Shown: positions 9,650 to 33,946 of the stretch, piece by piece
Position numbering within the stretch: the first letter of the stretch is position 1
How the letters are laid out: each line of letters starts with the position of its first letter
NCBI GenBank assembly: GCA_002783205.1
Contig: PFEY01000027.1
Coordinates: 1-34,720 of the forward strand
Length of the DNA: 34,720 bases
From: Rhodobacteraceae bacterium CG17_big_fil_post_rev_8_21_14_2_50_63_15
GTDB taxonomy: Bacteria; Pseudomonadota; Alphaproteobacteria; Rhodobacterales; Rhodobacteraceae
Direction of reading: 5' to 3'
Notes under the pieces: generated by a model
What the model was told of the DNA's origin: nothing
The model's database searches: none
Seen by the model: only the letters and a program-made list of their open reading frames with translations
Made by a program: the position numbers and the translations under genes

Positions 9650-10339
9650 TCAGTTTGGACCGTTCCATCGGCCCGGCATACCGATAGGCCGCGCGCCCTG
9701 AGGCGCGCGGATGCGGCCCAGAAACCCGAGTGGGCCTGTCATGAGACCGGAAATCAGTCGGTTGTCGCGGACCCGCGCCTTGAATTTCTCGATCTGCATC
9801 ACGTCCTCGATCCGGCGATCGAGAAATTCCCATGTGCGGGTCTGCCCCGCGCTGTCATCGCCCAGCCAGTAGAGCACGGTTGCGCCATAGACGCCCGAAA
9901 GGGTGGCGCGTTTGGTGTACCAGTTCACATCCTCGGAGGTGTCGCCGAGCGCGGTCCAGATATGATCGGCGGTCTGCCAGAGCGCGCGTGCGCCGTCGGC
10001 GACATAAGGCGGCAGGGAAAAGAGCGTCATGCCCCGGCGCACCAGTTCACGATCCTCGACGGCCTCGAGCCGGGCGCGCACGGCAAAGGCAACGCGGTCG
10101 CGGAACCGCAGAGCGCCAAGATCGGTCCCGGCCAGCCGTGCAAGCATGGCCGCGTCGCCCGCCGCGTGATAGGCCAGCGCCAGATCGACCGCGCCGCGCG
10201 GACAGATCGCGGCGACCAGTGCAGGCGCAATTCCGGCCTCCTCGGCGGCGGCGCGCAACGTGGTCTCGGTCCAGCCGTCAAAGGGCACAAGCGGCTTGGC
10301 GGCTTGCAGCAGTCGGGTCATCAGGTCGCGATCGGGCAT
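9650..10339 (-). CDS. COQ9 family ubiquinone biosynthesis protein
   Basis: COQ9 is a lipid-binding helper of ubiquinone synthesis with a TetR-like fold but no DNA-binding function. The 229-aa sequence shows the family core VPFDGWTETTLRAAAEEAGI, the FRDRVAFAVRARLE helix, DVNWYTKRATLSGVYGATVLYWLGD and FLDRRIEDVMQIEKFK. The second ATG (10339) is preferred over 10345, because the AAAGGA site is 7 nt from the former and only 1 nt from the latter. It is divergent from rpsU and lies upstream of a quinone oxidoreductase. Confidence 0.9.
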   Translation of the reverse strand: MPDRDLMTRLLQAAKPLVPFDGWTETTLRAAAEEAGIAPALVAAICPRGAVDLALAYHAAGDAAMLARLAGTDLGALRFRDRVAFAVRARLEAVEDRELVRRGMTLFSLPPYVADGARALWQTADHIWTALGDTSEDVNWYTKRATLSGVYGATVLYWLGDDSAGQTRTWEFLDRRIEDVMQIEKFKARVRDNRLISGLMTGPLGFLGRIRAPQGARPIGMPGRWNGPN

Positions 10340-18477: not shown

Positions 18478-20415
18478 ATGTGGTTAATGATGCGGTGCCT
18501 GACAAAGGCAAGGCCACATATTCTGGCAATTGCGACGCTGCTTGAGCTTGGTCTAGGAGCGGGCGTGATGTGGGCAGAACCTGCCTATGTCGGATCGTCC
18601 GTCTGCACGGAATGCCACAGGCAGGTTGACGCAGCCTGGCACAACTCCGATCACGCCAAGGCCTGGACTCTGCCAGACGAGACGACGGTTCTTGGCGATT
18701 TCAGCGACGTGACCTTTACGCATGGCGGGCAGGTGACGCGGTTCTTTCGCGACGGCGATGCATATATGATCGAAACCGCAGGTGCCGACGGCCAACGTCG
18801 CGCCTACCAGGTTGTCGGGGTTGCAGGCATTGACCCCTTGCAGCAATATCTGCTCTCACCGCAGCCGGGGCGGACGCAGGCCTATGACATTGCCTGGGAT
18901 GTCGCCGGGAAACGCTGGTATCCGGTCTTTCCCGATCCGGTCCCGCCGCCCGGAGACGGGTTTCACTGGACCGGAACCTACAAGAGCTGGGAGTCGCGCT
19001 GCGCGGAATGTCATGCCACCGGCTATAGCCGGAATTACGATCCGCCAACCAATAGCTACGCCCCGAAGATGACTGAGATCGGCGTGGGGTGTGAGGCGTG
19101 CCATGGTCCGGGGGCCGCGCACATCGCCTGGGCGCGCGACCCCATGACGCGCAAGCCGGAGGACGGGCTGACCCCGATAGGCCTGACAGTCGATCTGGGT
19201 GCCTCGCAGGAGATCGAGGTGATGCAATGCCTCACCTGTCATTCCCGCCGCGAGGCGATGCAGGATGGCAATCCGATGCCAGGAACGGATTATCACGACG
19301 CCTTTTCCCTCACACCGCTGCGCGAGGGCATCTATCACCCCGACGGGCAGATCCTCGATGAGGTGTTCGAGGGCGGCTCTTTCCTGCAATCGAAAATGCA
19401 CGCGAGGGGCGTGCGCTGTTCGGATTGCCATGACCCACATTCCGCGCAGCTAAGAGCTGAAGGCAACGCCGTCTGCGTGCAATGCCATTCCCCGGCAGGC
19501 AATCCTGAATTTCCCTCGCTGCCTCTCAAGGTCTATGACAGCCCCGACCATCATTTCCACCCGCAGGCAAGCGCGGGGGCGCAATGTGTGTCCTGTCATA
19601 TGATCGAGCGGACCTATATGGGCATCGACACGCGGCGCGATCACAGTTTCCGCGTGCCACGACCTGACCTTGCCGCGACCGGATCACCCGACGCCTGCAC
19701 CGATTGCCATACCGACCGCAGCGCGGAGTGGGCAGCCAGCAACCTTGCGTCGCGCGTCCCCGACAGCCTGCATCGCGGCCCACATTTCGCGACCGTCTTT
19801 GCCGCTGCGCGGCGTGATCCTCAGGGGCAGGCACAGATGCTGCTGGAGATCGCCGAATGGGCGGACGGGCCGGGCGTGGTGCGCGCCTCGGCCCTCGATC
19901 TCCTGGGGGCGGTCGCGGATATGGCGTCGGCCGACCGCGCCACCCGGCTCTTGGGCGATCGCGATCCCCTCGTTCGTTCTGCCGCCGCCTCGGTCCTGCG
20001 CAGCCTGCCGCCCGAGGACCGCCTTGCCCGGCTTGAACCGCTCCTGTCGGATCCCCGGCGCACCGTCCGCGAAGCGGCGGCCAAGGCGCTGATCGATGCG
20101 CAGGTCACGCTGGATACACCGCAGGCTACAGCACTCGCGGCGGCGCGGCAGGAATGGTCCGAGGCGCTGCGCCTGCGCGCGGATTACCCGGAAACCCAGT
20201 TGCAGATGGGCGGCGCAGCATTGCAGGCGCGGGACTTTGCGGCGGCGCTCACCGCCTTCGAGAGAGCGGTGACACTTGATCCGCAACTGGTCGATGCCTG
20301 GTCGATGGTGGTGCGGTTGCACGCCGCCATGGGCAATACTGACGCCGCGCAAGCCGCACTCGCACGCGCGCTGACCGCCAATCCGGGGAACAGCCGGCTG
20401 TTGTCCCTGCAATAG
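18478..20415 (+). CDS. Octaheme c-type cytochrome with HEAT-like and TPR repeats
   Basis: The protein of 645 aa starts with a signal peptide (ILAIATLLELGLGAGVMWA) and then contains eight CXXCH heme-binding motifs. These are CTECH 43, CAECH 175, CEACH 205, CLTCH 251, CSDCH 314, CVQCH 333, CVSCH 370 and CTDCH 407. After residue 440 come helical repeats of HEAT type (DLLGAVADMASADRATRLLG, then PLVRSAAASVLRSL, then RTVREAAAKALIDA), and from about 555 TPR units (ALRLRADYPETQLQMGGAAL, FAAALTAFERAVTLDP). It is a periplasmic electron carrier or multiheme reductase with a protein-docking tail. Related proteins are annotated as doubled-CXXCH or tetratricopeptide cytochromes; the reaction is unknown. 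It ends in TAG. Confidence 0.88.
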   Translation: MWLMMRCLTKARPHILAIATLLELGLGAGVMWAEPAYVGSSVCTECHRQVDAAWHNSDHAKAWTLPDETTVLGDFSDVTFTHGGQVTRFFRDGDAYMIETAGADGQRRAYQVVGVAGIDPLQQYLLSPQPGRTQAYDIAWDVAGKRWYPVFPDPVPPPGDGFHWTGTYKSWESRCAECHATGYSRNYDPPTNSYAPKMTEIGVGCEACHGPGAAHIAWARDPMTRKPEDGLTPIGLTVDLGASQEIEVMQCLTCHSRREAMQDGNPMPGTDYHDAFSLTPLREGIYHPDGQILDEVFEGGSFLQSKMHARGVRCSDCHDPHSAQLRAEGNAVCVQCHSPAGNPEFPSLPLKVYDSPDHHFHPQASAGAQCVSCHMIERTYMGIDTRRDHSFRVPRPDLAATGSPDACTDCHTDRSAEWAASNLASRVPDSLHRGPHFATVFAAARRDPQGQAQMLLEIAEWADGPGVVRASALDLLGAVADMASADRATRLLGDRDPLVRSAAASVLRSLPPEDRLARLEPLLSDPRRTVREAAAKALIDAQVTLDTPQATALAAARQEWSEALRLRADYPETQLQMGGAALQARDFAAALTAFERAVTLDPQLVDAWSMVVRLHAAMGNTDAAQAALARALTANPGNSRLLSLQ

Positions 20416-24525: not shown

Positions 24526-26880
24526 GTGAAGCTGAAACTGACATGTAACCTCCCATGGCGAGAGGCCGTGCTGGCCAGCCTCGTTTCGGTCTTTGCCGCG
24601 CAGGCGGCAATCGACCGCTCGGTCTTGCCGATCCAACTGCCTGCCCAGCCCGCGATCACGGCACTGACCGTGAAGGACGCAACTCTGCCAGAGCGCCTTA
24701 CAGTGACCGCGCCAAAGGGCGCGCCGAATGTGGTGATCGTGTTGATCGACGATCTGGGCTTTGGCGCGACGGAAACCTTCGGCGGCCCGATTGCCACCCC
24801 GACGCTGGATGAGCTTGCCAGCGAGGGCCTGCGCTTCAACAGCTTTCACACCACGGCGCTTTGCTCGCCGACGCGCGCCGCGCTCAAATCGGGCCGCAAC
24901 CACCATGTCGCCTCGATGGGGTTCATCACCGAAATGGCCACCGGCTTTCCCGGATCGACGGGTCAGATCCCCAACAGCGTTGCGCCACTGGCCGAAATCC
25001 TGCGCCTCAACGGCTATAGCACCGGCGCCTTTGGCAAATGGCACGAGACCGCCGCTTGGGAAACCAGCGTTTCCGGCCCCTATGACCGCTGGCCCACGCA
25101 TCAGGGCTTTGACAAATTCTATGGCTTTCTCGGGGGCGAGACGAACCAGTGGGCGCCGTTTCTGTATGACGGTGTGACTCAGGTCGAACCGGCGGAAGTT
25201 CCCGGTTACAATTTCATGACCGACATGACCGATCAGGCGATCACCTAGATCAAGCACCAGCAGGCGATGACCCCGGACAAGCCGTTCTTTACCTATTTCG
25301 CACCCGGCGCGGTGCATGCGCCACACCATGTGCCGCAGGAATGGATCGACCGCTGGAAAGGCAAGTTTGACGCGGGCTGGGATGTGCTTCGCGAAGAGAC
25401 CCTCGCGCGCCAGATCGCCGAAGGCGTCGTGCCCCCGGATACCGTGCTTGCGCCAAAACCGGCGGCCATCAAGGATTGGAGCAGTCTCTCGGAGGATGAA
25501 AAACGTCTCTTCGCCCGTCAGGCCGAAGTTTTCGCCGCCTTCACCGAATATACCGACCATGAAATCGGGCGGATGGTCCAGAGCATCGAGGATATGGGAG
25601 AGCTGGACGATACGCTGATCTTCTACATCGCCGGCGACAATGGCACCAGCGCCGAAGGCGGCACCAACGGCATGTTCAACGAATACACCTATTTCAACGG
25701 TGTGCCCGAACAGGTCGCGGACATGCTTCCGCTGATCGACAAATGGGGTGGGCCCGAGACCTATCCTCACATGACCGCTGCCTGGGCGGTTGCCATGAAT
25801 GCGCCCTTTACCTGGGTCAAGCAGGTCGCCTCGAGCTTTGGTGGCACCCGCGTCGGCATGGCAGTGCACTGGCCCGCTGGCATCAAGAGCAAGGGCGAGT
25901 TGCGCACGCAGTTCGGTCATGTCATCGACATCGCGCCGACCATTCTGGAGGCGGTGGGCCTGCCCGAGCCGACCAGCGTGAACGGCACGCCTCAGGTGCC
26001 CATGAACGGCACCAGCCTGCTCTACACCTTCGACGACGCCACCGCGCCCGAGCGCCACACCACGCAGTATTTCGAGATTGCGGGCAGCCGGGCGATCTAT
26101 CACGATGGCTGGCTTGCCGGAACGGTTCACGCAGCCCCATGGGAAGCCAAGCCCGCCACCACGCTCGAAGACGATGTCTGGGAACTTTATGACGTGCGCT
26201 CCGACTTCAGCCTGGCCCACGATCTTGCCGCCCAGATGCCGGAAAAGCTGGCCGAAATGCAGGCGCTCTTCCTTGAGGAAGCCCGCAAGAACAATGTCCT
26301 GCCGATCGATGATCGCAAATTCGAGCGGCTCACCGATCCGGTCGGGGTGGGCCGGCCCGACCTCTTTCACGGGCGCAGCACCATCACGCTGGCCCAAGGC
26401 ATGAAGGGCATGTCGGAGTCGGCCTTCCCCAATGTCAAGAACCGCTCGCTCTCCATCGACGCCGATATCGTCGTGCCCGAGGGCGGCGCGACCGGAGCGA
26501 TCATTGCCCAAGGTGGCCGGTTCGGCGGCTGGTCGCTCTACCTCAAGGATGGTGTGCCGGGATATACCTATAACTTCCTCGGCCTCCAGATCTTTGACAT
26601 CCTCGCCACGGAGGCACTGGCGCCGGGCGCGGCCAATATCCGGGTCGATTTCGCCTATGATGGCGGCGGGCCGGGCAAGGGCGGGCTTGCGACCATTCTC
26701 GTCAATGGCAAGGCGGTGGCGGAGGGCCGGATCGAACAGACCCAAGGCGCCATCTTCTCGGCCGACGAGACGGCGGATGTGGGTGTTGATCTGGGCACGG
26801 CGGTGGTCGCTGACATCGGGGCGGGCCGCGCCTCGCATTTCTCGGGCGAGATCCCGCGCGTCACGCTCACCCTGCAATGA
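24526..26880 (+). pseudogene. Arylsulfatase interrupted by one in-frame TAG
   Basis: The joined frame encodes 784 positions, the normal size of large bacterial arylsulfatases. It starts at GTG 24526 behind GAGGA and has a signal-like N-terminus (AVLASLVSVFAAQA). The metal-binding IVLIDDLGFG and the formylglycine motif CSPTRAALKSG (C113) are present, though the usual LTG is KSG here. Later motifs GKWHE, APHHVPQEW and GDNGTS follow. Codon 241 is TAG at 25246-25248, within AIT-stop-IKHQQ, where relatives usually have Trp (TGG), so one G-to-A change explains it. The frame then continues unbroken for about 540 codons. Without readthrough, the ATG at 25267 could give only the C-terminal part lacking the catalytic cysteine. 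Sulfate-ester scavenging is the expected ancestral role. Confidence 0.88.
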
Positions 26881-28036: not shown

Positions 28037-28090
28037 ACGCCGTTGAAATCGAACAGGCCATTTCCGAACTGGCCGAAAAACCCTTGGACC
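28033..28090 (+). pseudogene. N-terminal remnant of an MmeI-like DNA methyltransferase
   Basis: Overlapping the PIN stop codon, the frame CTG-AAC-GCC reads (L)NAVEIEQAISELAEKPLDR. This resembles the conserved opening MNAVEIEQAISELAE of class I SAM-dependent, MmeI-like methyltransferases as I remember it. The expected ATG is CTG here. After DR the sequence turns into GTAAGCG, the start of an IS66-type end. So the gene is cut after about 19 codons and is dead. Confidence 0.5.
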
Positions 28091-28216
28091 GTAAGCGTCC
28101 GGCCTGACTGCTCTGCCGCGGGCTGAGAGTGCGGGATAGTGTCCCCCATTGATAGTGGACACTATGGTGATGGCGTGGCGCGTCGGACGAAGCGGCTTTG
28201 GGCGGATGAGAAAAGG
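28091..28216 (+). mobile_element. IS66-family left-end remnant with first codons of the accessory transposase gene
   Basis: GTAAGCGTCCGGCC at 28091 has the GTAAGCG opening typical of IS66-family terminal repeats. About 85 nt later a GTG at 28175 opens MARRTKRLWADEKR, similar to the start of IS66 TnpA proteins, and the frame stops at 28217. Between them lies a perfect 9-bp inverted repeat, ATAGTGTCC/GGACACTAT (28136-28144 and 28157-28165). The rest of the element is gone; at about 28216 the sequence passes into the binding-protein remnant. Confidence 0.55.
28136..28165. repeat. Inverted repeat inside the IS66-type end
   Basis: ATAGTGTCC at 28136-28144 and GGACACTAT at 28157-28165 are perfect inverted copies with a 12-nt loop, just before the start of the truncated transposase frame. 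They could form a hairpin that blocks incoming transcription or overlaps its promoter. Confidence 0.7.
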
Positions 28217-28294
28217 TGAACACCATTTCCTGCGCCATTGCACCATGCGCCATCACGGCACCGGCTGTGGTCAACGCGAACAGGGTCTTTTCAT
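28217..28294 (-). pseudogene. Signal-peptide remnant of an exported protein at the operon end
   Basis: Thirty nt after the aldehyde dehydrogenase stop there is GAGGGAG, a short A-run, then an ATG at 28294. Just after it, in the +1 frame, runs KTLFALTTAGAVMAHGAMAQ, a clear signal peptide, followed by EMVFTF. One A is missing from the AAAA run, so ATG and peptide are out of frame, and the sequence enters the IS66-type end after about 25 codons. The start of a periplasmic substrate-binding protein is likely, but which class is unknown. Confidence 0.5.
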
Positions 28295-28322
28295 CTTTTT
28301 TCTCCCTCAGATGATCTCAGTT

Positions 28323-29789
28323 TCACCGCATCACGAACGGGTCCGGGATCGGATCGTCCGCGGTGCGCAGCCAGACGGTTTTCACCGTGGTGTAGTCGAG
28401 CGCCGCCGCCATGCCGCCTTCGCGGCCGTGGCCGGACAGGCCATGGCCGCCAAAGGGCGCGATGGGCGATACGGCGCGATAGGTGTTGACCCAGACGATC
28501 CCGGCGCGGAGGCCGCGGATCATCCGATGGGCGCGGGTCAGATCGCGGGTGAAAACGCCTGAGGCCAGGCCGAATTCGGTGCCATTGGCCAGCGCCAGCG
28601 CCTGATCCTCGGTCTCAAAGGTGACCACCGACAGCACCGGGCCAAAGAATTCCTGCTGCAGGCAGGGCGCATCGGGGGCGTCGGTGCAGTCAAGAATGGT
28701 CGGCGGGAAGTAGAACCCCGCGCCCTCAACCGATTGCCCGCCGGTCACCAGCCTGGCGCCGGCCGCCAGGGATTGCGCGATCAGCGCCCCGATCCGGTCG
28801 CGCTGCCGCGCGGTGCAGAGCGGGCCGATCTCGGTTTCCATCCGGTCGGGCGCGCCGATCCGCGCCGCTTCGGCTTTGGCTTTCAGCCGCGCCAGAAAAG
28901 CATCCTTGACCGACGCTTGCACCAGCAGCCGGGATCCCGCGACGCAGCTTTGCCCGGTTGCGGCAAATATCCCCGACACCTGGGCGTTGGCGGCACTGTC
29001 CAGATCGGCATCCTCGAACACGAAGAACGGCGATTTGCCGCCCAGTTCCAGCGAGGTGCGGGCCAGGTTTTCCGCACTGGCGCGCACGATATGGCGCGCC
29101 GTGTCCGGCCCGCCGGTGAAGGCGATATGCGCCACCTTTGGATGACGGGTCAGCGCCTGCCCCGCCTCTGGCCCGCCGGTCAGGATATTGACCACGCCCG
29201 CAGGAAACCCCGCCTGATCCACCAGTCGCGCAAACTCCAGCAGCGGGGCCGGGCCGTCTTCGCTGGCCTTCAGGACCACGGTGCAACCCACCGCCAACGC
29301 CGGGCCCAGTTTCACCGCCGACAGGAACAACTGGCTGTTCCACGGCACGATGGCGGCGACCACGCCCACCGGTTCGCGGCGCAACCACACTTCCATGTCG
29401 GGCTTGTCGATCGGCAGATGCGCGCCTTCGATCTTGTCGGCAAGGCCCGCGTAATAGCGGTAATATTCGGCCACATAGGCGATCTGGGCGCTGGTTTCGC
29501 GGATGATCTTGCCGGTGTCGCGGGTTTCCAGCGCCGCCAGACGCGGCGCCGCCGCCTGCACCAGATCGGCCAGTTGATAAAGCAGCTTGCCGCGCTGGGT
29601 CGCGGTCAGACCAGCCCATTGCGGGGCGTGAAAGGCCCGATGCGCCGCCATCACCGCCCGGTCGATATCCGCCGCATCGGCCAGAGGCATCACCGCCCAG
29701 GCTACCCCCGTGGCCGGGTCCAGGCTTTCGAAGGTCGCGGCCCCGTCCTCGAACGCGCCGTCGATATAGTGCTGGAAGCGCTCCATCAT
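28323..29789 (-). CDS. NAD(P)-dependent aldehyde dehydrogenase
   Basis: A 488-aa aldehyde dehydrogenase oxidising an aldehyde to its acid. Motifs are VVAAIVPWNSQLF for cofactor binding, FTGGPDTARHIV, the general base Glu in SLELGGKSP and the catalytic cysteine in ATGQSCVAGSR, with EEF-like QQEFFGPVLSVVTF near the end. It begins 9 nt after the luciferase-like gene on the same strand, so it is translated from the same mRNA. Two adjacent ATGs (29789 and 29786) are possible starts. In this operon it would oxidise an aldehyde produced after monooxygenase attack; the specific aldehyde is unknown. Confidence 0.93.
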   Translation of the reverse strand: MMERFQHYIDGAFEDGAATFESLDPATGVAWAVMPLADAADIDRAVMAAHRAFHAPQWAGLTATQRGKLLYQLADLVQAAAPRLAALETRDTGKIIRETSAQIAYVAEYYRYYAGLADKIEGAHLPIDKPDMEVWLRREPVGVVAAIVPWNSQLFLSAVKLGPALAVGCTVVLKASEDGPAPLLEFARLVDQAGFPAGVVNILTGGPEAGQALTRHPKVAHIAFTGGPDTARHIVRASAENLARTSLELGGKSPFFVFEDADLDSAANAQVSGIFAATGQSCVAGSRLLVQASVKDAFLARLKAKAEAARIGAPDRMETEIGPLCTARQRDRIGALIAQSLAAGARLVTGGQSVEGAGFYFPPTILDCTDAPDAPCLQQEFFGPVLSVVTFETEDQALALANGTEFGLASGVFTRDLTRAHRMIRGLRAGIVWVNTYRAVSPIAPFGGHGLSGHGREGGMAAALDYTTVKTVWLRTADDPIPDPFVMR

Positions 29790-29798
29790 GTTCCTCGT

Positions 29799-30836
29799 TC
29801 AGGCAAAAGCGGGCATCACGTCGCGGATCAGGCGTTCAAGCGAGGCTTTCTTGCGGGCAAAACTCATCCCGGTGTCGATCCAGAAGCTGAACTCGTCATA
29901 GCCCAGTGCCTCGTAGCCCTTGATGCGTTCAATCACCTCGGGCGGCTCGCCAATGATCTGGTTCTTGCGCATCGCCGCCGCTGAATAGAACGGATGGGCC
30001 GCGATTTCGGCCTCGGTCAGTTCCTGAATCAGGCCCTGCGTGATCGGGCGCTCGTTTTTGAACCAGGCGCCGAAATAGCAGTAGAACCTGTTGATCTCAT
30101 CGGCGGCCAATTGGGCATCGGTCTCGCTGTCGGCGACATAGGCGTGGCGAAGCACCATGATCCTGGGGCGCTCTATTTCAGGATGAGCGGCGCAGGCGGC
30201 GTTGAAACGCTCCATCAGGCTGACCACCTCTTCATCGCCCAGATGCAGCGGCGTGACCTGCACGTTGCAGGCCTGCGACACGGCGAAGTCGTGGCTGTTG
30301 GGGTCGCGTGCGGCCACCCAGATCGGCGGGCCGGGTTGTTGCTGAGGCTTGGGCGAGGCGGTGGTCTTGGGGAACTGCCAGTATTCGCCCTGATGTTCGT
30401 AGTCGCCTTGCCACAGCGCCTTTACCGCCGGGATCAGTTCGCGCATCCGCCCGCCAGCACCCCAAGCGTCCAGCCCCGGCAACAGGCGTTCGTATTCAAA
30501 CCCATAGGCCCCGCGCGCAATGCCAAGATCCAGCCGGCCATCCATGATGATGTCGGCCATCGCCGCTTCACCCGCGAGCCGGATCGGGTGCCAGAACGGT
30601 GCAATCACCGTGCCGGTGCCAAGCCGCACGTTCTTGGTGCGCCGCGCCAGATCCACGAGATTGAGCAACGGGTTCGGCGCGATGGTAAAATTCATGCCGT
30701 GATGTTCGCCGGTCCAGATGGCGTGCATCCCGCCTTCGTCCGCGATGAGGCACAGTTCGATCATTTCATCATAAAGCTGTTTCTGGTCTTCGTTGGCCGA
30801 AACACGCTCCATATGGATAAAGAGAGAGAATTTCAT
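29799..30836 (-). CDS. LLM-class flavin-dependent monooxygenase (bacterial luciferase-like)
   Basis: A 345-aa TIM-barrel protein beginning MKFSLFIHMERVSANEDQKQ, with IWTGEHHGMNFTIAPNPLL, RLGTGTVIAPFWHPIRLAGE and LDLGIARGAYGFEYERL, all typical of luciferase-like monooxygenases using reduced FMN and O2. AAAGG precedes ATG 30836; the frame is open upstream but overlaps the flavin reductase gene. Its reductant most probably comes from that reductase, 4 nt upstream. The nearest functional analogies are RutA (pyrimidine ring opening) and PyrA (pyridine), so attack on an N-heterocycle or a ketone is a reasonable hypothesis. Confidence 0.92.
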   Translation of the reverse strand: MKFSLFIHMERVSANEDQKQLYDEMIELCLIADEGGMHAIWTGEHHGMNFTIAPNPLLNLVDLARRTKNVRLGTGTVIAPFWHPIRLAGEAAMADIIMDGRLDLGIARGAYGFEYERLLPGLDAWGAGGRMRELIPAVKALWQGDYEHQGEYWQFPKTTASPKPQQQPGPPIWVAARDPNSHDFAVSQACNVQVTPLHLGDEEVVSLMERFNAACAAHPEIERPRIMVLRHAYVADSETDAQLAADEINRFYCYFGAWFKNERPITQGLIQELTEAEIAAHPFYSAAAMRKNQIIGEPPEVIERIKGYEALGYDEFSFWIDTGMSFARKKASLERLIRDVMPAFA

Positions 30837-30840
30837 AGGA

Positions 30841-31767
30841 TTACCTTTCCCGGATTCGTGTGACGCGGCCCTGCTCATGCGTGCCGACGTAGACACCGTA
30901 ATTGCCGATGCGGCTTTCGTCGGCCAGTCGCTCCAGCATGATGCGCATGGCGGGGTCGGTGACATCCGATACGCTTTCGGCTGACAGTTCGACAAAGCCG
31001 CCCTTGGCGGGTTTGCCGATTGTGGCAGGACAGCGAAAGGCGATGTGCTGCTGGGCAAGCGCGACATCTTCGTAGACCGCATAGATCGAGCCCGGTTCGG
31101 CAGGAACACCGGTTGCGGCCAACAAGCCGGCCAGCGCGCTTTGCACACCTTCCTTGCCGACGCGGGCCATCGGCAGGGTCAGTCCGCCATGCCCGTCATC
31201 CATCAGCAGCACCTGACCGTCGGCCTGAAGAATGGCAGTCAGCACCACATCGGGGCCGGTAGGCAGCTGCGCCGCCGTCTGCGCCGGGGTGACATAGGCA
31301 CCGCGATAATACCCAAGACCGGGGGCGGGCGTCGCCTCCATTGCGCCGATCCGGCCGATCAGGATGGTATGGTCGCCAGCAGAAACCACCTGTTCCATCG
31401 CGCAGTCGAACCATGCCGAAACCCCGGCGATCAGCGGCGATCCAATGGGGCCACGCCGCCAGTAAGTCTGGGCAAAACGATCTTCAGACGGGCGGGCAAA
31501 GGTGCCTGAGACATCCTTTTGCCCTTCAGCCAAGATGTTCACGGCAAAGCCCTGACCCGCCGCAAACGCCGTCAGATTGGCCGAGCTGTTGGCGATCGAC
31601 ACGAGCAGCAGCGGCGGGTCCAGCGACACCGACGAAAACGAATTGGCAGTAAAGCCAAGCGGCTTTCCGGCAGAATCCAGGGTGGTCACCACGGTCACGC
31701 CGGTCATGAAACAGCCGAATGCGTCCCGCAGGGCACGCGGATCAATCGCGGGACCTTCAGCGTTCAT
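30841..31767 (-). CDS. Flavin reductase with C-terminal Nudix-like domain
   Basis: The first about 165 residues are a flavin reductase of the HpaC/RutF type (DAFGCFMTGVTVVTTLDSAG, GFTANSFSSVSLDPPLLLVS, and GDHTILIGRIGAM), which supplies reduced flavin to a partner monooxygenase. Residues about 180-265 form a second domain, DVVLTAILQADGQVLLMDDG, then GGLTLPMARVGKEGVQSALA and GLLAATGVPAE. Its layout matches a Nudix fold, but the catalytic REXXEE residues are missing. The total of 308 aa is nearly double a plain reductase. It overlaps the alpha/beta hydrolase by ATGA and precedes the luciferase-like enzyme by 4 nt. Confidence 0.88.
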   Translation of the reverse strand: MNAEGPAIDPRALRDAFGCFMTGVTVVTTLDSAGKPLGFTANSFSSVSLDPPLLLVSIANSSANLTAFAAGQGFAVNILAEGQKDVSGTFARPSEDRFAQTYWRRGPIGSPLIAGVSAWFDCAMEQVVSAGDHTILIGRIGAMEATPAPGLGYYRGAYVTPAQTAAQLPTGPDVVLTAILQADGQVLLMDDGHGGLTLPMARVGKEGVQSALAGLLAATGVPAEPGSIYAVYEDVALAQQHIAFRCPATIGKPAKGGFVELSAESVSDVTDPAMRIMLERLADESRIGNYGVYVGTHEQGRVTRIRER

Positions 31768-32558
31768 TGCTCACCCTCCTTTGTGGACAGCCAGCGTCGC
31801 AGCTCGGATGTGACGGCCGCGGGGGCGGTCAGGTTGACCATGTGCCGGTGTCCGGCAATCACCGCAGCGCGCCCCATTGGGGCCATGGCGGCCATGGCTT
31901 CGGTCATGGCGGGGGTGGAATTGGCGTCGCCATCGCCTGTCAGCACCAAGAGCGGGCAGCGGATCTGGCCCAGCCGGTCGGCATAGATTGTGTCGCCCTC
32001 GGCAAAGGCGCGGTAGGCGGCGGCGTAACCGCGATGCGAAACCGCGCGCAGCCAGCCTGCCACCTGATCGCGCACTGCCGCATCTTCGGGGGTGAACCAG
32101 CGGGCGAGCGGACCTTCGATCCCACCCGCATCGGCGGCAATCTCGGCCGCCCGTTTCAGCACCGCGTCACGGGCCTCCGGGCTGCGGCGGTGCACCCCGT
32201 TCAACAGCGCGGCGCGGCACACGAGGTCGGGACGCTCCACCGCCAGCCCGGCGATGATCAGCGCCCCCATCGAATGTCCCGCAAGGCTGACAGGGCCAAG
32301 GTCCAGCGCCTCGATCACCCGTGCGGCCCAAGCCACATAGTCCGGCAGCAGCGCCTCTTCGGACAGCGGGTCGCTGTCGCCATGCCCCGGCATGTCCACC
32401 GCGACAACCCGGTGATCCGCCGCGAGCGCCGCAATCTGCGGCCCCCAGGCCTCGGCCAGCATCCCCACCCCGTGGATCAGCACCACCGGCGCGCCAGCCC
32501 CCGCCATCAGGGCGCGGACGGTCAGGCCATCAGACAGCCGCAGGGTTTGCGACATCAT
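31764..32558 (-). CDS. Alpha/beta hydrolase (RutD / enol-lactonase-like)
   Basis: A 264-aa cytoplasmic alpha/beta hydrolase with the oxyanion loop VVLIHGVGM, the nucleophile elbow AGHSMGAL, an acid in VLTGDGDANS and the terminal histidine in AGHRHMVNL. This is the group that includes 3-oxoadipate enol-lactonase and RutD. It would cleave an ester, lactone or amide-like product of the monooxygenase. Its ATG lies inside the end of the AA_synth gene (29-nt overlap) and its stop overlaps the flavin reductase start by 4 nt, so translation is tightly coupled. Confidence 0.9.
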   Translation of the reverse strand: MMSQTLRLSDGLTVRALMAGAGAPVVLIHGVGMLAEAWGPQIAALAADHRVVAVDMPGHGDSDPLSEEALLPDYVAWAARVIEALDLGPVSLAGHSMGALIIAGLAVERPDLVCRAALLNGVHRRSPEARDAVLKRAAEIAADAGGIEGPLARWFTPEDAAVRDQVAGWLRAVSHRGYAAAYRAFAEGDTIYADRLGQIRCPLLVLTGDGDANSTPAMTEAMAAMAPMGRAAVIAGHRHMVNLTAPAAVTSELRRWLSTKEGEQ

Positions 32559-33132
32559 GGCCCAGATCCTTCAAGTCTTGATAACGGTCGCCGATGCGGT
32601 GATGCGGTCGCCCCCCGGAAGAGGCCCCAAGCGCCACCACGATCTCATCCGCCGCCGGCGCATCCGGGATCGAGAAATGGATGGTCTGATAATGCGAGCG
32701 CCGGCCTTCGTCATTCTTGTCCATCAGCGGAATCATGATCGGGCAATTGGCCGGGCCGCGCACATTGGTGAAGGCCAGATAGGTTTTCGCCCCAAGGGCC
32801 TGACGGTAGTGGTTGCCAAAGCGCAGCGTGTGGATCAGCGCGTTGGCATGTTCCAACTCGCCGTCCAGCCCGACAACCGCGGCTTTGCCATAGCCTTCGA
32901 CGGCATCGGCACCGCCGGCAGCGTCAAGGATCATCGCTGTCAACAATGCGCCCAGTTCGGGGGCAACGGCGTGGATCGCCGGCTTCAGATCCGCGACAAA
33001 GCCCATCCCGGCCCAGGGGTTTTTCAAGACTGCAACGGCAGAGATCAGCTTTAGCGGCCTCGGCGCCGCCCGCCCGCCTTCGATCAGCGTTGTCTCGATA
33101 GTGGTGAAAGTCTTCCGAATCTGCGCCGACAT
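32530..33132 (-). CDS. Amino acid synthesis (AA_synth, PF06684 / DUF1185) family protein
   Basis: The 200-aa protein begins MSAQIRKTFTTIETTLIEGG and has VAVLKNPWAGMGFVADLKPA, GYGKAAVVGLDGELEHANAL and CPIMIPLMDKNDEGRRSHYQ, all features of the AA_synth family. Despite its name the family's reaction is not known to me; it often lies in catabolic operons with flavin monooxygenases. GGGAG lies about 8 nt before ATG 33132. It is the first gene of the minus-strand operon and faces the GntR regulator across about 100 nt of shared control DNA. Confidence 0.82.
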   Translation of the reverse strand: MSAQIRKTFTTIETTLIEGGRAAPRPLKLISAVAVLKNPWAGMGFVADLKPAIHAVAPELGALLTAMILDAAGGADAVEGYGKAAVVGLDGELEHANALIHTLRFGNHYRQALGAKTYLAFTNVRGPANCPIMIPLMDKNDEGRRSHYQTIHFSIPDAPAADEIVVALGASSGGRPHHRIGDRYQDLKDLGHDVANPAAV

Positions 33133-33151
33133 GTTGGGCTCTCCCGTTTGC

Positions 33152-33179
33152 TTGACCGTAAGGTGGTATACCATATGAT
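33152..33179 (+). promoter_or_regulatory. Promoter of the GntR regulator, overlapping its probable operator
   Basis: TTGACC (33152-33157), a 16-nt spacer and TATGAT (33174-33179) form a good sigma-70-like promoter reading toward the regulator at 33233. The palindrome TGGTATACCA fills the 3' half of the spacer. On the opposite strand TTGACA at 33184-33189 could be the -35 box of the catabolic operon, but no well-spaced -10 box is evident. Confidence 0.55.
33164..33173. promoter_or_regulatory. Palindromic operator TGGTATACCA
   Basis: A perfect 10-bp palindrome between divergent operon and regulator, of the TGGNNNNCCA-like form bound by many FadR/FCD-type GntR proteins. It lies within the promoter spacer of the regulator gene, so binding would give autorepression and could also block the opposing operon. 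Confidence 0.6.
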
Positions 33180-33232
33180 TGCATGTCAAGAAAAACTTGC
33201 GTTGCCTTGGGACCGACCCTATTCTGCGGGCC

Positions 33233-33916
33233 ATGGATCAGACACCAGAAAACGATCTTCGCATTGCCCATTCCCACACCACCCTGCGGGAACTGGTGGT
33301 TGAGAAGATGCGCCAGGCCATTATTTCTGGCCGTTTCGACGGTGGTGATCGGCTGGTTGAGCGCACGCTGTGCGATCAACTGGGCGTGTCGCGGTCGGTT
33401 GTGCGCGAGGCGATCCGTTATCTTGAGGCTGAGGGGCTAGTGGAAACCTTGGCGCGCAGCGGCCCGGTTGTCGCCAAGCTGGATTGGAACGGCGCGCGGC
33501 AGATCTATGAAATCCGCCGATTGCTTGAAGCCGAGGCCGCCGCCGCCTGCGCCCGCGTGGCCGATGCAGCCGTAAAAGCGCGTCTGTGCGATGCATTGGC
33601 CGCGCTGGAATCTGCGTTTCAGGATGCGGCCCCGCACAAGCTTTATGCCGCGACCACGGATTTCTATCAGGTGATTTTCACTTCTGCGAGGCACAACATC
33701 GCGTGGGAGGTTGTCCAGCGGCTGAATGGCCGGATCTCGCGCCTGCGGGCCCTGACCTTGGCCACGACCAATCGGCGCGTGTCGGGGCCTGCCCATATGG
33801 CCCGTATCTGCGCTGCCATCTGCGACAACGCCCCCGAGGCTGCCGCCGAGGCCGTGCGAAACCATCTTGTCGATGCGGCCGAAATTGCCCGTACTCTGTT
33901 GGAAAGCCCGCCATGA
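33233..33916 (+). CDS. GntR family transcriptional regulator with FCD domain
   Basis: A 227-aa regulator: residues 15-80 are the GntR winged helix (LVVEKMRQAIISGRFDGGDR, then CDQLGVSRSVVREAIRYLEA) and the rest is the all-helical FCD ligand-binding domain (IYEIRRLLEAEAAAACARVA, with the metal-site-like DFYQVIF and later NHLVDAAEI). It is divergent from the catabolic operon with a palindrome between them, so it most likely controls that operon in response to a pathway acid. The ATG at 33233 is used; an earlier in-frame start lies inside the promoter. Its stop overlaps the next start by ATGA. Confidence 0.9.
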   Translation: MDQTPENDLRIAHSHTTLRELVVEKMRQAIISGRFDGGDRLVERTLCDQLGVSRSVVREAIRYLEAEGLVETLARSGPVVAKLDWNGARQIYEIRRLLEAEAAAACARVADAAVKARLCDALAALESAFQDAAPHKLYAATTDFYQVIFTSARHNIAWEVVQRLNGRISRLRALTLATTNRRVSGPAHMARICAAICDNAPEAAAEAVRNHLVDAAEIARTLLESPP

Positions 33917-33946
33917 CGGCCTACTATGACGGCCTATTGGATTGCC
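33913..33946 (+). pseudogene. Truncated start of a gene coupled to the GntR gene
   Basis: An ATG at 33913 overlaps the GntR stop (ATGA) and reads MTAYYDGLLDCQ before entering the IS3-type end. The overlap is typical of real operon partners, so the second gene of this unit seems to have been cut after about 11 codons. What it encoded cannot be told. GACGGCCTA occurs twice within these bases (33916 and 33929). Confidence 0.35.

Follow-up and report, generated by a model that had tools for sequence, protein, structure and literature searches.

A five-gene operon with an AA_synth gene in a Rhodobacteraceae genome is very probably a tgn operon for trigonelline catabolism

Contig PFEY01000027.1 of Rhodobacteraceae bacterium CG17_big_fil_post_rev_8_21_14_2_50_63_15 (assembly GCA_002783205.1) was analysed over positions 1 to 34,720, and this whole stretch of 34,720 nucleotides is referred to here as the window. 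Positions 28323-33132 contain five genes on one strand, which encode in this order an AA_synth protein (PF06684), an alpha/beta hydrolase, a flavin reductase, a luciferase-like monooxygenase (LLM; hereafter the oxygenase) and an aldehyde dehydrogenase (ALDH). All five proteins score above their Pfam cut-offs in a Pfam search, translation revealed intact frames free of internal stops, and the successive genes are spaced by -29, -4, +4 and +9 nt. The five-gene operon proposed in the initial annotation is thus borne out by gene content (Pfam) and by spacing (overlaps or gaps of at most 9 nt). The gap of +4 nt after the reductase gene depends on the ATG at 30836, which was taken as the start of the oxygenase gene; the oxygenase query used in the Pfam search, the tblastn search that found Acinetobacter sp. 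PK01 and the A. baylyi comparison carried 2-3 extra N-terminal residues. Coordinates of all features are given in Table 1.

Table 1. Features of the operon and its surroundings (positions in the window; names as Tgn orthologues are explained in the text)
Feature	Position	Strand	Size and basis
AA_synth (PF06684), TgnF orthologue	32530..33132	-	200 aa; Pfam 229.8 bits
Alpha/beta hydrolase, TgnD orthologue	31764..32558	-	264 aa; Abhydrolase_6 85.3 bits; GHSMG motif
Flavin reductase, TgnA orthologue	30841..31767	-	308 aa; N-terminal Flavin_Reduct 134.4 bits, C-terminal NUDIX-related extension
Luciferase-like monooxygenase, TgnB orthologue	29799..30836	-	345 aa; Bac_luciferase 187.4 bits
Aldehyde dehydrogenase, TgnC orthologue	28323..29789	-	488 aa; Aldedh 533.2 bits
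GntR/FCD-family regulator, divergent from the operon	33233..33916	+	Pfam FCD 70.1 bits, GntR 63.0 bits
Palindrome TGGTATACCA between regulator and operon	33164..33173		Sequence conservation
C-terminal NUDIX-related domain of TgnA	30844..31266	-	Profile search against PDB
Remnant of ABC-transporter substrate-binding gene, codons 2-27	28215..28292	-	Match to the G. fulvus gene after tgnC
Repeat abutting the truncated transporter gene	28090..28210		Three further partial genomic copies

The operon is very probably a tgn operon for the catabolism of trigonelline (N-methylnicotinate), a common plant and algal compound. In a tblastn search of plasmid records, the third match of the oxygenase was the tgnB gene of Acinetobacter sp. 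PK01, annotated as 'flavin-dependent trigonelline monooxygenase oxygenase component' (76.5% identity over 99%). The PK01 locus is annotated in the order divergent GntR, AA_synth, hydrolase, tgnA (reductase), tgnB, tgnC, permease and succinate-semialdehyde dehydrogenase (SSADH), with tgnC described as methylformamido-hydroxybutyrolactone dehydrogenase, and genes for a sarcosine-oxidase-like protein, PurU and FolD are located close to it. The genes stand in the same order in A. baylyi, for which the DSM 14961 genome and not that of ADP1 was compared, and the identities to the window proteins are 67% for AA_synth, 51% for the hydrolase, 50% for the reductase (295 aa), 75% for the oxygenase, 70% for the ALDH and 50% for the GntR regulator. 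SSADH, PurU and sarcosine-oxidase-like genes occur at both Acinetobacter loci, and the latter two fit with formate and methylamine as pathway products. The hydrolase is presumably the protein named TgnD. TgnE is the name of the SSADH, and neither this name nor TgnD comes from the PK01 record. The name TgnF for the AA_synth protein is taken from PMC7913881.

A scan of named genomes with PK01 TgnB returned at least 559 relatives, and the best 80 were kept as named loci, so that counts among them describe conservation within the group and not its limits. The five genes are present in the same order and on one strand in 73 of the 80 loci, in which alpha-, beta- and gammaproteobacteria are represented. 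Among the seven exceptions, the reductase matches of L061, L072, L073, L076 and L078 were too distant to be counted; the best ALDH match of L073 and the best hydrolase match of L078 lie on the opposite strand, as do the best hydrolase, reductase and ALDH matches of L077. Because this order is so widely kept and a single blastn alignment of 81.5% identity links the locus to Gemmobacter fulvus, the five-gene arrangement is not a product of chance. AA_synth itself is found in 79 of the 80 loci, and the exception (L109) is a contig that starts at the hydrolase gene. The idea that AA_synth stands here in place of RutB/RutC therefore had to be abandoned: on sequence grounds, the window protein is the usual TgnF of tgn operons and no operon-specific substitute for these proteins.

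The phylogeny of the oxygenases leads to the same assignment. In a maximum-likelihood tree of 47 LLM oxygenases (midpoint-rooted, with one long branch flagged, the Arthrobacter row), the window protein is placed beside that of G. fulvus (100/99) and shares a 28-row clade with A. baylyi TgnB (100/100). The LLM proteins of three other kinds of AA_synth operon, termed type B (R. phaseoli/Agrobacterium), type C (Parasedimentitalea) and type D (Arthrobacter), fall outside this clade. Seven rows represent diverged tgn-like oxygenases with 59-63% identity to PK01 TgnB, five of them nested in the clade on a long branch and two just outside. The initial annotation had described a two-component flavin monooxygenase operon of the kind that opens N-heterocycles, which the homology to tgn confirms. 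It had also assumed an unknown substrate and a possible new pathway, and neither assumption is supported: a characterised homologous operon exists, the tgn route is already described, and all genes are orthologous and in the same order. The substrate is very probably one already known, trigonelline, and a false lead towards a new heterocycle pathway is thereby removed.

The divergently transcribed GntR gene, which occupies the place of its A. baylyi counterpart and whose product is 81% identical to that of G. fulvus, probably encodes the tgn regulator. The 100-base intergenic region between this gene and the AA_synth gene contains the palindrome TGGTATACCA, the sole exact copy in the window; a second site with one mismatch is found at 9913. 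Among 79 upstream regions, 59 carry the palindrome in its exact form and the other 20 with one mismatch, against means of 0.02 and 0.48 after base shuffling, with the qualification that many regions come from close relatives and that independent cases are hence fewer. These regions comprise the window, L033-L036 and 74 of the 79 named AA_synth loci, the remainder having identical or unusable proteins. The motif is common to alpha-, beta- and gammaproteobacterial loci and is a probable operator, through which GntR would control the operon. It can be used as a simple marker for further tgn operons.

The tgn route for trigonelline was reportedly worked out in A. baylyi ADP1 by Perchat et al. in 2018. 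For the individual reactions, we rely on this Acinetobacter work, on PMC8269262 and PMC7913881, and on the PK01 gene names. TgnA would provide reduced flavin, and TgnB would use O2 to cut the pyridinium ring of trigonelline between C5 and C6, yielding formamido-hydroxybutyrolactone. TgnC would convert this compound to (N-methylformamido)methylene-succinate, from which TgnD is predicted to release formate, methylamine, CO2 and succinate semialdehyde. The semialdehyde would finally be converted to succinate by SSADH with the help of TgnF. Ring opening by TgnA/TgnB is stated in PMC8269262, which also reports better growth of Ruegeria pomeroyi DSS-3 on trigonelline than on homarine. According to PMC7913881, the TgnE-dependent oxidation of the semialdehyde in A. 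baylyi ADP1 is stimulated by TgnF, a PF06684-type homologue. The window genome contains an SSADH gene on another contig (C96), with 53% identity to the PK01 enzyme and a TIGR01780 score of 680.7 bits (cut-off 646.35).

Several observations weigh against the trigonelline assignment. The SSADH gene lies outside the operon; its adjacency to the tgn genes varies, with SSADH nearby in 45 of the 80 named loci within the DNA examined. Genes for handling the products are not general either, since a sarcosine-oxidase-like gene is found near only 10 of the 80 loci and PurU near 5; the best match in the window genome to the sarcosine-oxidase-like protein, which bears on the fate of methylamine, reaches 41%. 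The reductase and the hydrolase are only 50-51% identical to their A. baylyi counterparts. A close orthologue of the tgn binding protein was not found in the genome (best match 37%, contig C95), nor was one of the tgn ATP-binding cassette (ABC) permease (best 41%, contig C95), and the Acinetobacter-type permease had no match in the genome at E 1e-5, in a search that lacked a positive control. The genome is 94.5% complete, so that the absence of a gene is no proof.

The window differs from intact homologous operons in its transport genes. Such operons with their transport genes, which the initial annotation suggested looking for, were found, for example in G. fulvus and Sinorhizobium meliloti with an ABC transporter. 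On the G. fulvus plasmid, the ABC transporter comes after tgnC, and GntR is followed by a DUF1330 gene. Of the binding-protein gene, the window keeps 26 codons, whose translation is 84.6% identical over 26 aa (E 1.9e-8); beyond them, similarity ends at 28214. On the other side the alignment stops at 33923; no match to the G. fulvus DUF1330 gene was found in the window at E 0.01, and the 797 bases beyond 33923 have no further copy elsewhere in the genome. Elsewhere in the genome, the repeat next to the truncated gene occurs in three further partial copies of 83-90% identity, two of which sit at contig ends. It is perhaps the end of an insertion sequence; on visual inspection, its translation looks like the beginning of a transposase frame. 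This comparison indicates that the ABC-transporter genes adjoining the operon have been lost in the window strain. Uptake must then go through a different system, or else the operon may have little activity left; in that sense, it may be orphaned. Transporters vary among tgn loci: of the 80 named ones, 33 have a match to the ABC binding protein nearby and 51 have one to the Acinetobacter-type permease.

That the operon is a decaying, non-functional tgn operon, in which transport was lost by a rearrangement so recent that the genes still persist, is compatible with its tgn identity and was judged separately as unlikely. The broken similarity on both flanks, the repeat abutting the cut and the lack of a close transporter in the genome speak for such a decay. 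On the other hand, the five frames are intact, the palindrome is exact, AA_synth and the oxygenase retain 93.5% and 91% identity to G. fulvus, and some other system may serve for uptake; G. fulvus-type ABC genes are likewise missing next to tgnC at Leisingera and Caballeronia loci. The divergence of the reductase and hydrolase from A. baylyi could also be read as a sign that the substrate of a tgn-derived operon is now a related pyridine, N-methylated or substituted, while the ring-opening chemistry has stayed the same, and the diverged tgn-like oxygenases in relatives make a drift in specificity plausible. We consider such a shift very improbable: the window oxygenase shares 75-77% identity with Acinetobacter TgnB and falls into neither of the diverged groups, and gene order and palindrome are unchanged. 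Hardly credible, on a comparison that covered Rut models and tgn loci, is a ring-opening route of the Rut or pyridine (Pyr) type in which AA_synth replaces RutB/RutC, to which the initial annotation had seen a close resemblance. The general architecture of two-component flavin monooxygenase, hydrolase and dehydrogenase is shared, and the RutF and RutD equivalog models do match, but far below their cut-offs (92.4 versus 254.75 and 55.8 versus 238.5 bits), and Rut membership was rejected on this ground. No RutA model is among the 25 listed for the oxygenase, and each gene has a close tgn counterpart at the equivalent place.

With the operon read as a trigonelline operon, the remaining question concerns its AA_synth protein. 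No assigned reaction for the PF06684 family was found in the literature, in line with the initial annotation. Of 299 genomes sampled from the phylum, 49 contain PF06684, and the window genome is one of these. The 70 matches, minus the window's own, one 40-residue fragment and one member of each of 6 tandem pairs, gave 62 survey loci, which were sorted into classes with limits set by us (e.g. 66% identity between tgn and tgn-like): 25 lie beside genes for 6-hydroxynicotinate reductase and UPF0280, 8 are tgn, 4 tgn-like, 2 type B, 1 type C and 22 other. Eighteen further loci from the window's genus, our own selection from a longer list, comprise 10 type C, 3 tgn-like, 1 tgn with an adjoining nicotinate-type cluster and 4 other loci. 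The window genome has a second AA_synth of the nicotinate kind, in a cluster on contig C20 (L187:2120-8567) with genes for flavin adenine dinucleotide (FAD) and molybdenum dehydrogenase subunits, a 6-hydroxynicotinate reductase (65%) and UPF0280. It thus holds two AA_synths for two pyridine-carboxylate routes.

A tree of 110 AA_synth sequences splits into two sides of 55 each; it was built quickly, with Shimodaira-Hasegawa-like approximate likelihood-ratio (SH-aLRT) support only and a midpoint root. The first side contains all 31 nicotinate-type rows and 21 'other' ones, and the three tgn-locus rows found there are second AA_synths of nicotinate type; the second side contains the LLM operons and 7 'other' rows. 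Nine of the 12 type C AA_synths nest among the tgn ones on the LLM side, whereas the type C oxygenases form a distant clade of their own in the LLM tree (100/100), as if the AA_synth gene had moved between pathways. This pattern argues for a shared later intermediate rather than a shared ring-opening substrate. Both kinds of sister operon encode AA_synth, an LLM oxygenase, an ALDH and a hydrolase; type B (L137, L141, L188, L200) adds a flavin reductase and CMD or NIPSNAP proteins, and the annotated example of type C (L140, L207, L213, L215, L216, L218, L220-L225), L140, adds RidA and a coenzyme A transferase. The oxygenases of both types are far from TgnB, and no substrate was found for either type.

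Invariant in the 110 sequences are Lys83, Gly88, Glu94, His95, Arg110, Pro135, Pro159, Glu163 and Arg179. An AlphaFold2 model of the window protein (predicted local distance difference test, pLDDT, 87.5) matches the structures 3byq (Z 23.4) and 2qtp (Z 21.6). Both, BB2672 and SPO0826, respectively, belong to the same PF06684 family with about 32-38% identity to the window protein, and their functions are likewise given as unassigned in PMC2954203. Among unrelated folds, Rid-family, RutC (5.6) and chorismate mutase chains reach Z 5.4-6.7, which is below 8 and indicates at most a common arrangement. A role of AA_synth as a simple RidA replacement is weakened by these values and by a Parasedimentitalea locus annotated with both proteins; when the RidA protein of this locus was searched for in 11 more loci of type C, however, nothing matched at E 0.001.

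One tentative and rather doubtful proposal is that AA_synth serves heteroaromatic ring-opening routes in general, as a small enzyme that would hydrolyse, tautomerise or decarboxylate the enamine, enol or 2-formyl-dicarboxylate left after ring opening and so free the semialdehyde for the dehydrogenase. Its frequent position beside 6-hydroxynicotinate reductase (25 of the 62 loci, including one in the window genome) suggests action on the formyl or enamine dicarboxylate that both routes should yield. The proposal suggests 2-formylsuccinate or the methylamine enamine as the target in the trigonelline route, and 2-formylglutarate or its enamine in the nicotinate route via 6-hydroxynicotinate reductase. 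Lys83, Glu94, His95, Arg110 and Arg179 could form the active site, with Lys83 as a Schiff-base residue. If true, the freeing of the semialdehyde would explain how AA_synth helps SSADH. A strict tie of AA_synth to N-heterocycles is not supported. The protein is also encoded in the 7-hydroxycoumarin hcd operon, where, according to PMC7913881, all attempts to find an effect of HcdD failed, and survey loci place it beside FAA-hydrolase and zinc-alcohol-dehydrogenase genes and beside FAD-monooxygenase genes. These settings, together with the 22 'other' loci among the 62, count against a narrow role on 2-formyl-dicarboxylates. AA_synth proteins form a widespread family, for which two structures are solved. 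The connection of its two main branches with ring opening of the trigonelline and nicotinate types predicts specific substrates open to direct assay.

The reductase has about 140 extra C-terminal residues, and this extended form (301-323 aa) is found in all 78 reductases measured (84 loci searched, 6 without a same-strand match). Pfam revealed nothing convincing on the C-terminus alone. A profile of 29 reductase C-termini searched against PDB first retrieved 3rh7 (1.2e-40) and then NUDIX chains (best 1.1e-5). Pfam NUDIX was matched in only 2 of the 29 C-termini with a best E of 0.014, which counts against a NUDIX assignment. Since the Nudix box is degenerate by eye, a sensory or structural role is more probable for this domain than hydrolase activity. 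The 3rh7 chain (SMa0793) is identical to the tgn reductase on pSymA of S. meliloti 1021 (L237:9452-10372), so that the structure deposited as a hypothetical oxidoreductase is that of the S. meliloti tgn reductase.

Elsewhere in the window, a sulfatase gene on the plus strand (24526-25248 and 25267-26880) is apparently split in-frame by a stop codon at 25246-25248, and both halves match Pfam Sulfatase. Positions 18478-20415 (plus strand) encode a 645-aa protein with multihaem cytochrome motifs and HEAT and TPR repeats.

Three known loci place the window operon among its relatives. The A. baylyi tgn operon has the same five orthologues in the same order, a divergent GntR gene and the palindrome with one mismatch; it differs in having permease, SSADH and CMD genes after tgnC, which the window operon lacks. 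On pSymA of S. meliloti 1021, a record without annotation, the order is again the same, with identities of 79% for AA_synth, 50% for the hydrolase, 46% for the reductase, 71% for the oxygenase, 75% for the ALDH and 45% for GntR; unlike the window, this locus retains the ABC transporter after tgnC. The third is plasmid p1 of G. fulvus con5 (NZ_CP076362), whose single blastn alignment spans window positions 28214-33923 and which keeps both the ABC transporter and the DUF1330 gene that the window is without.

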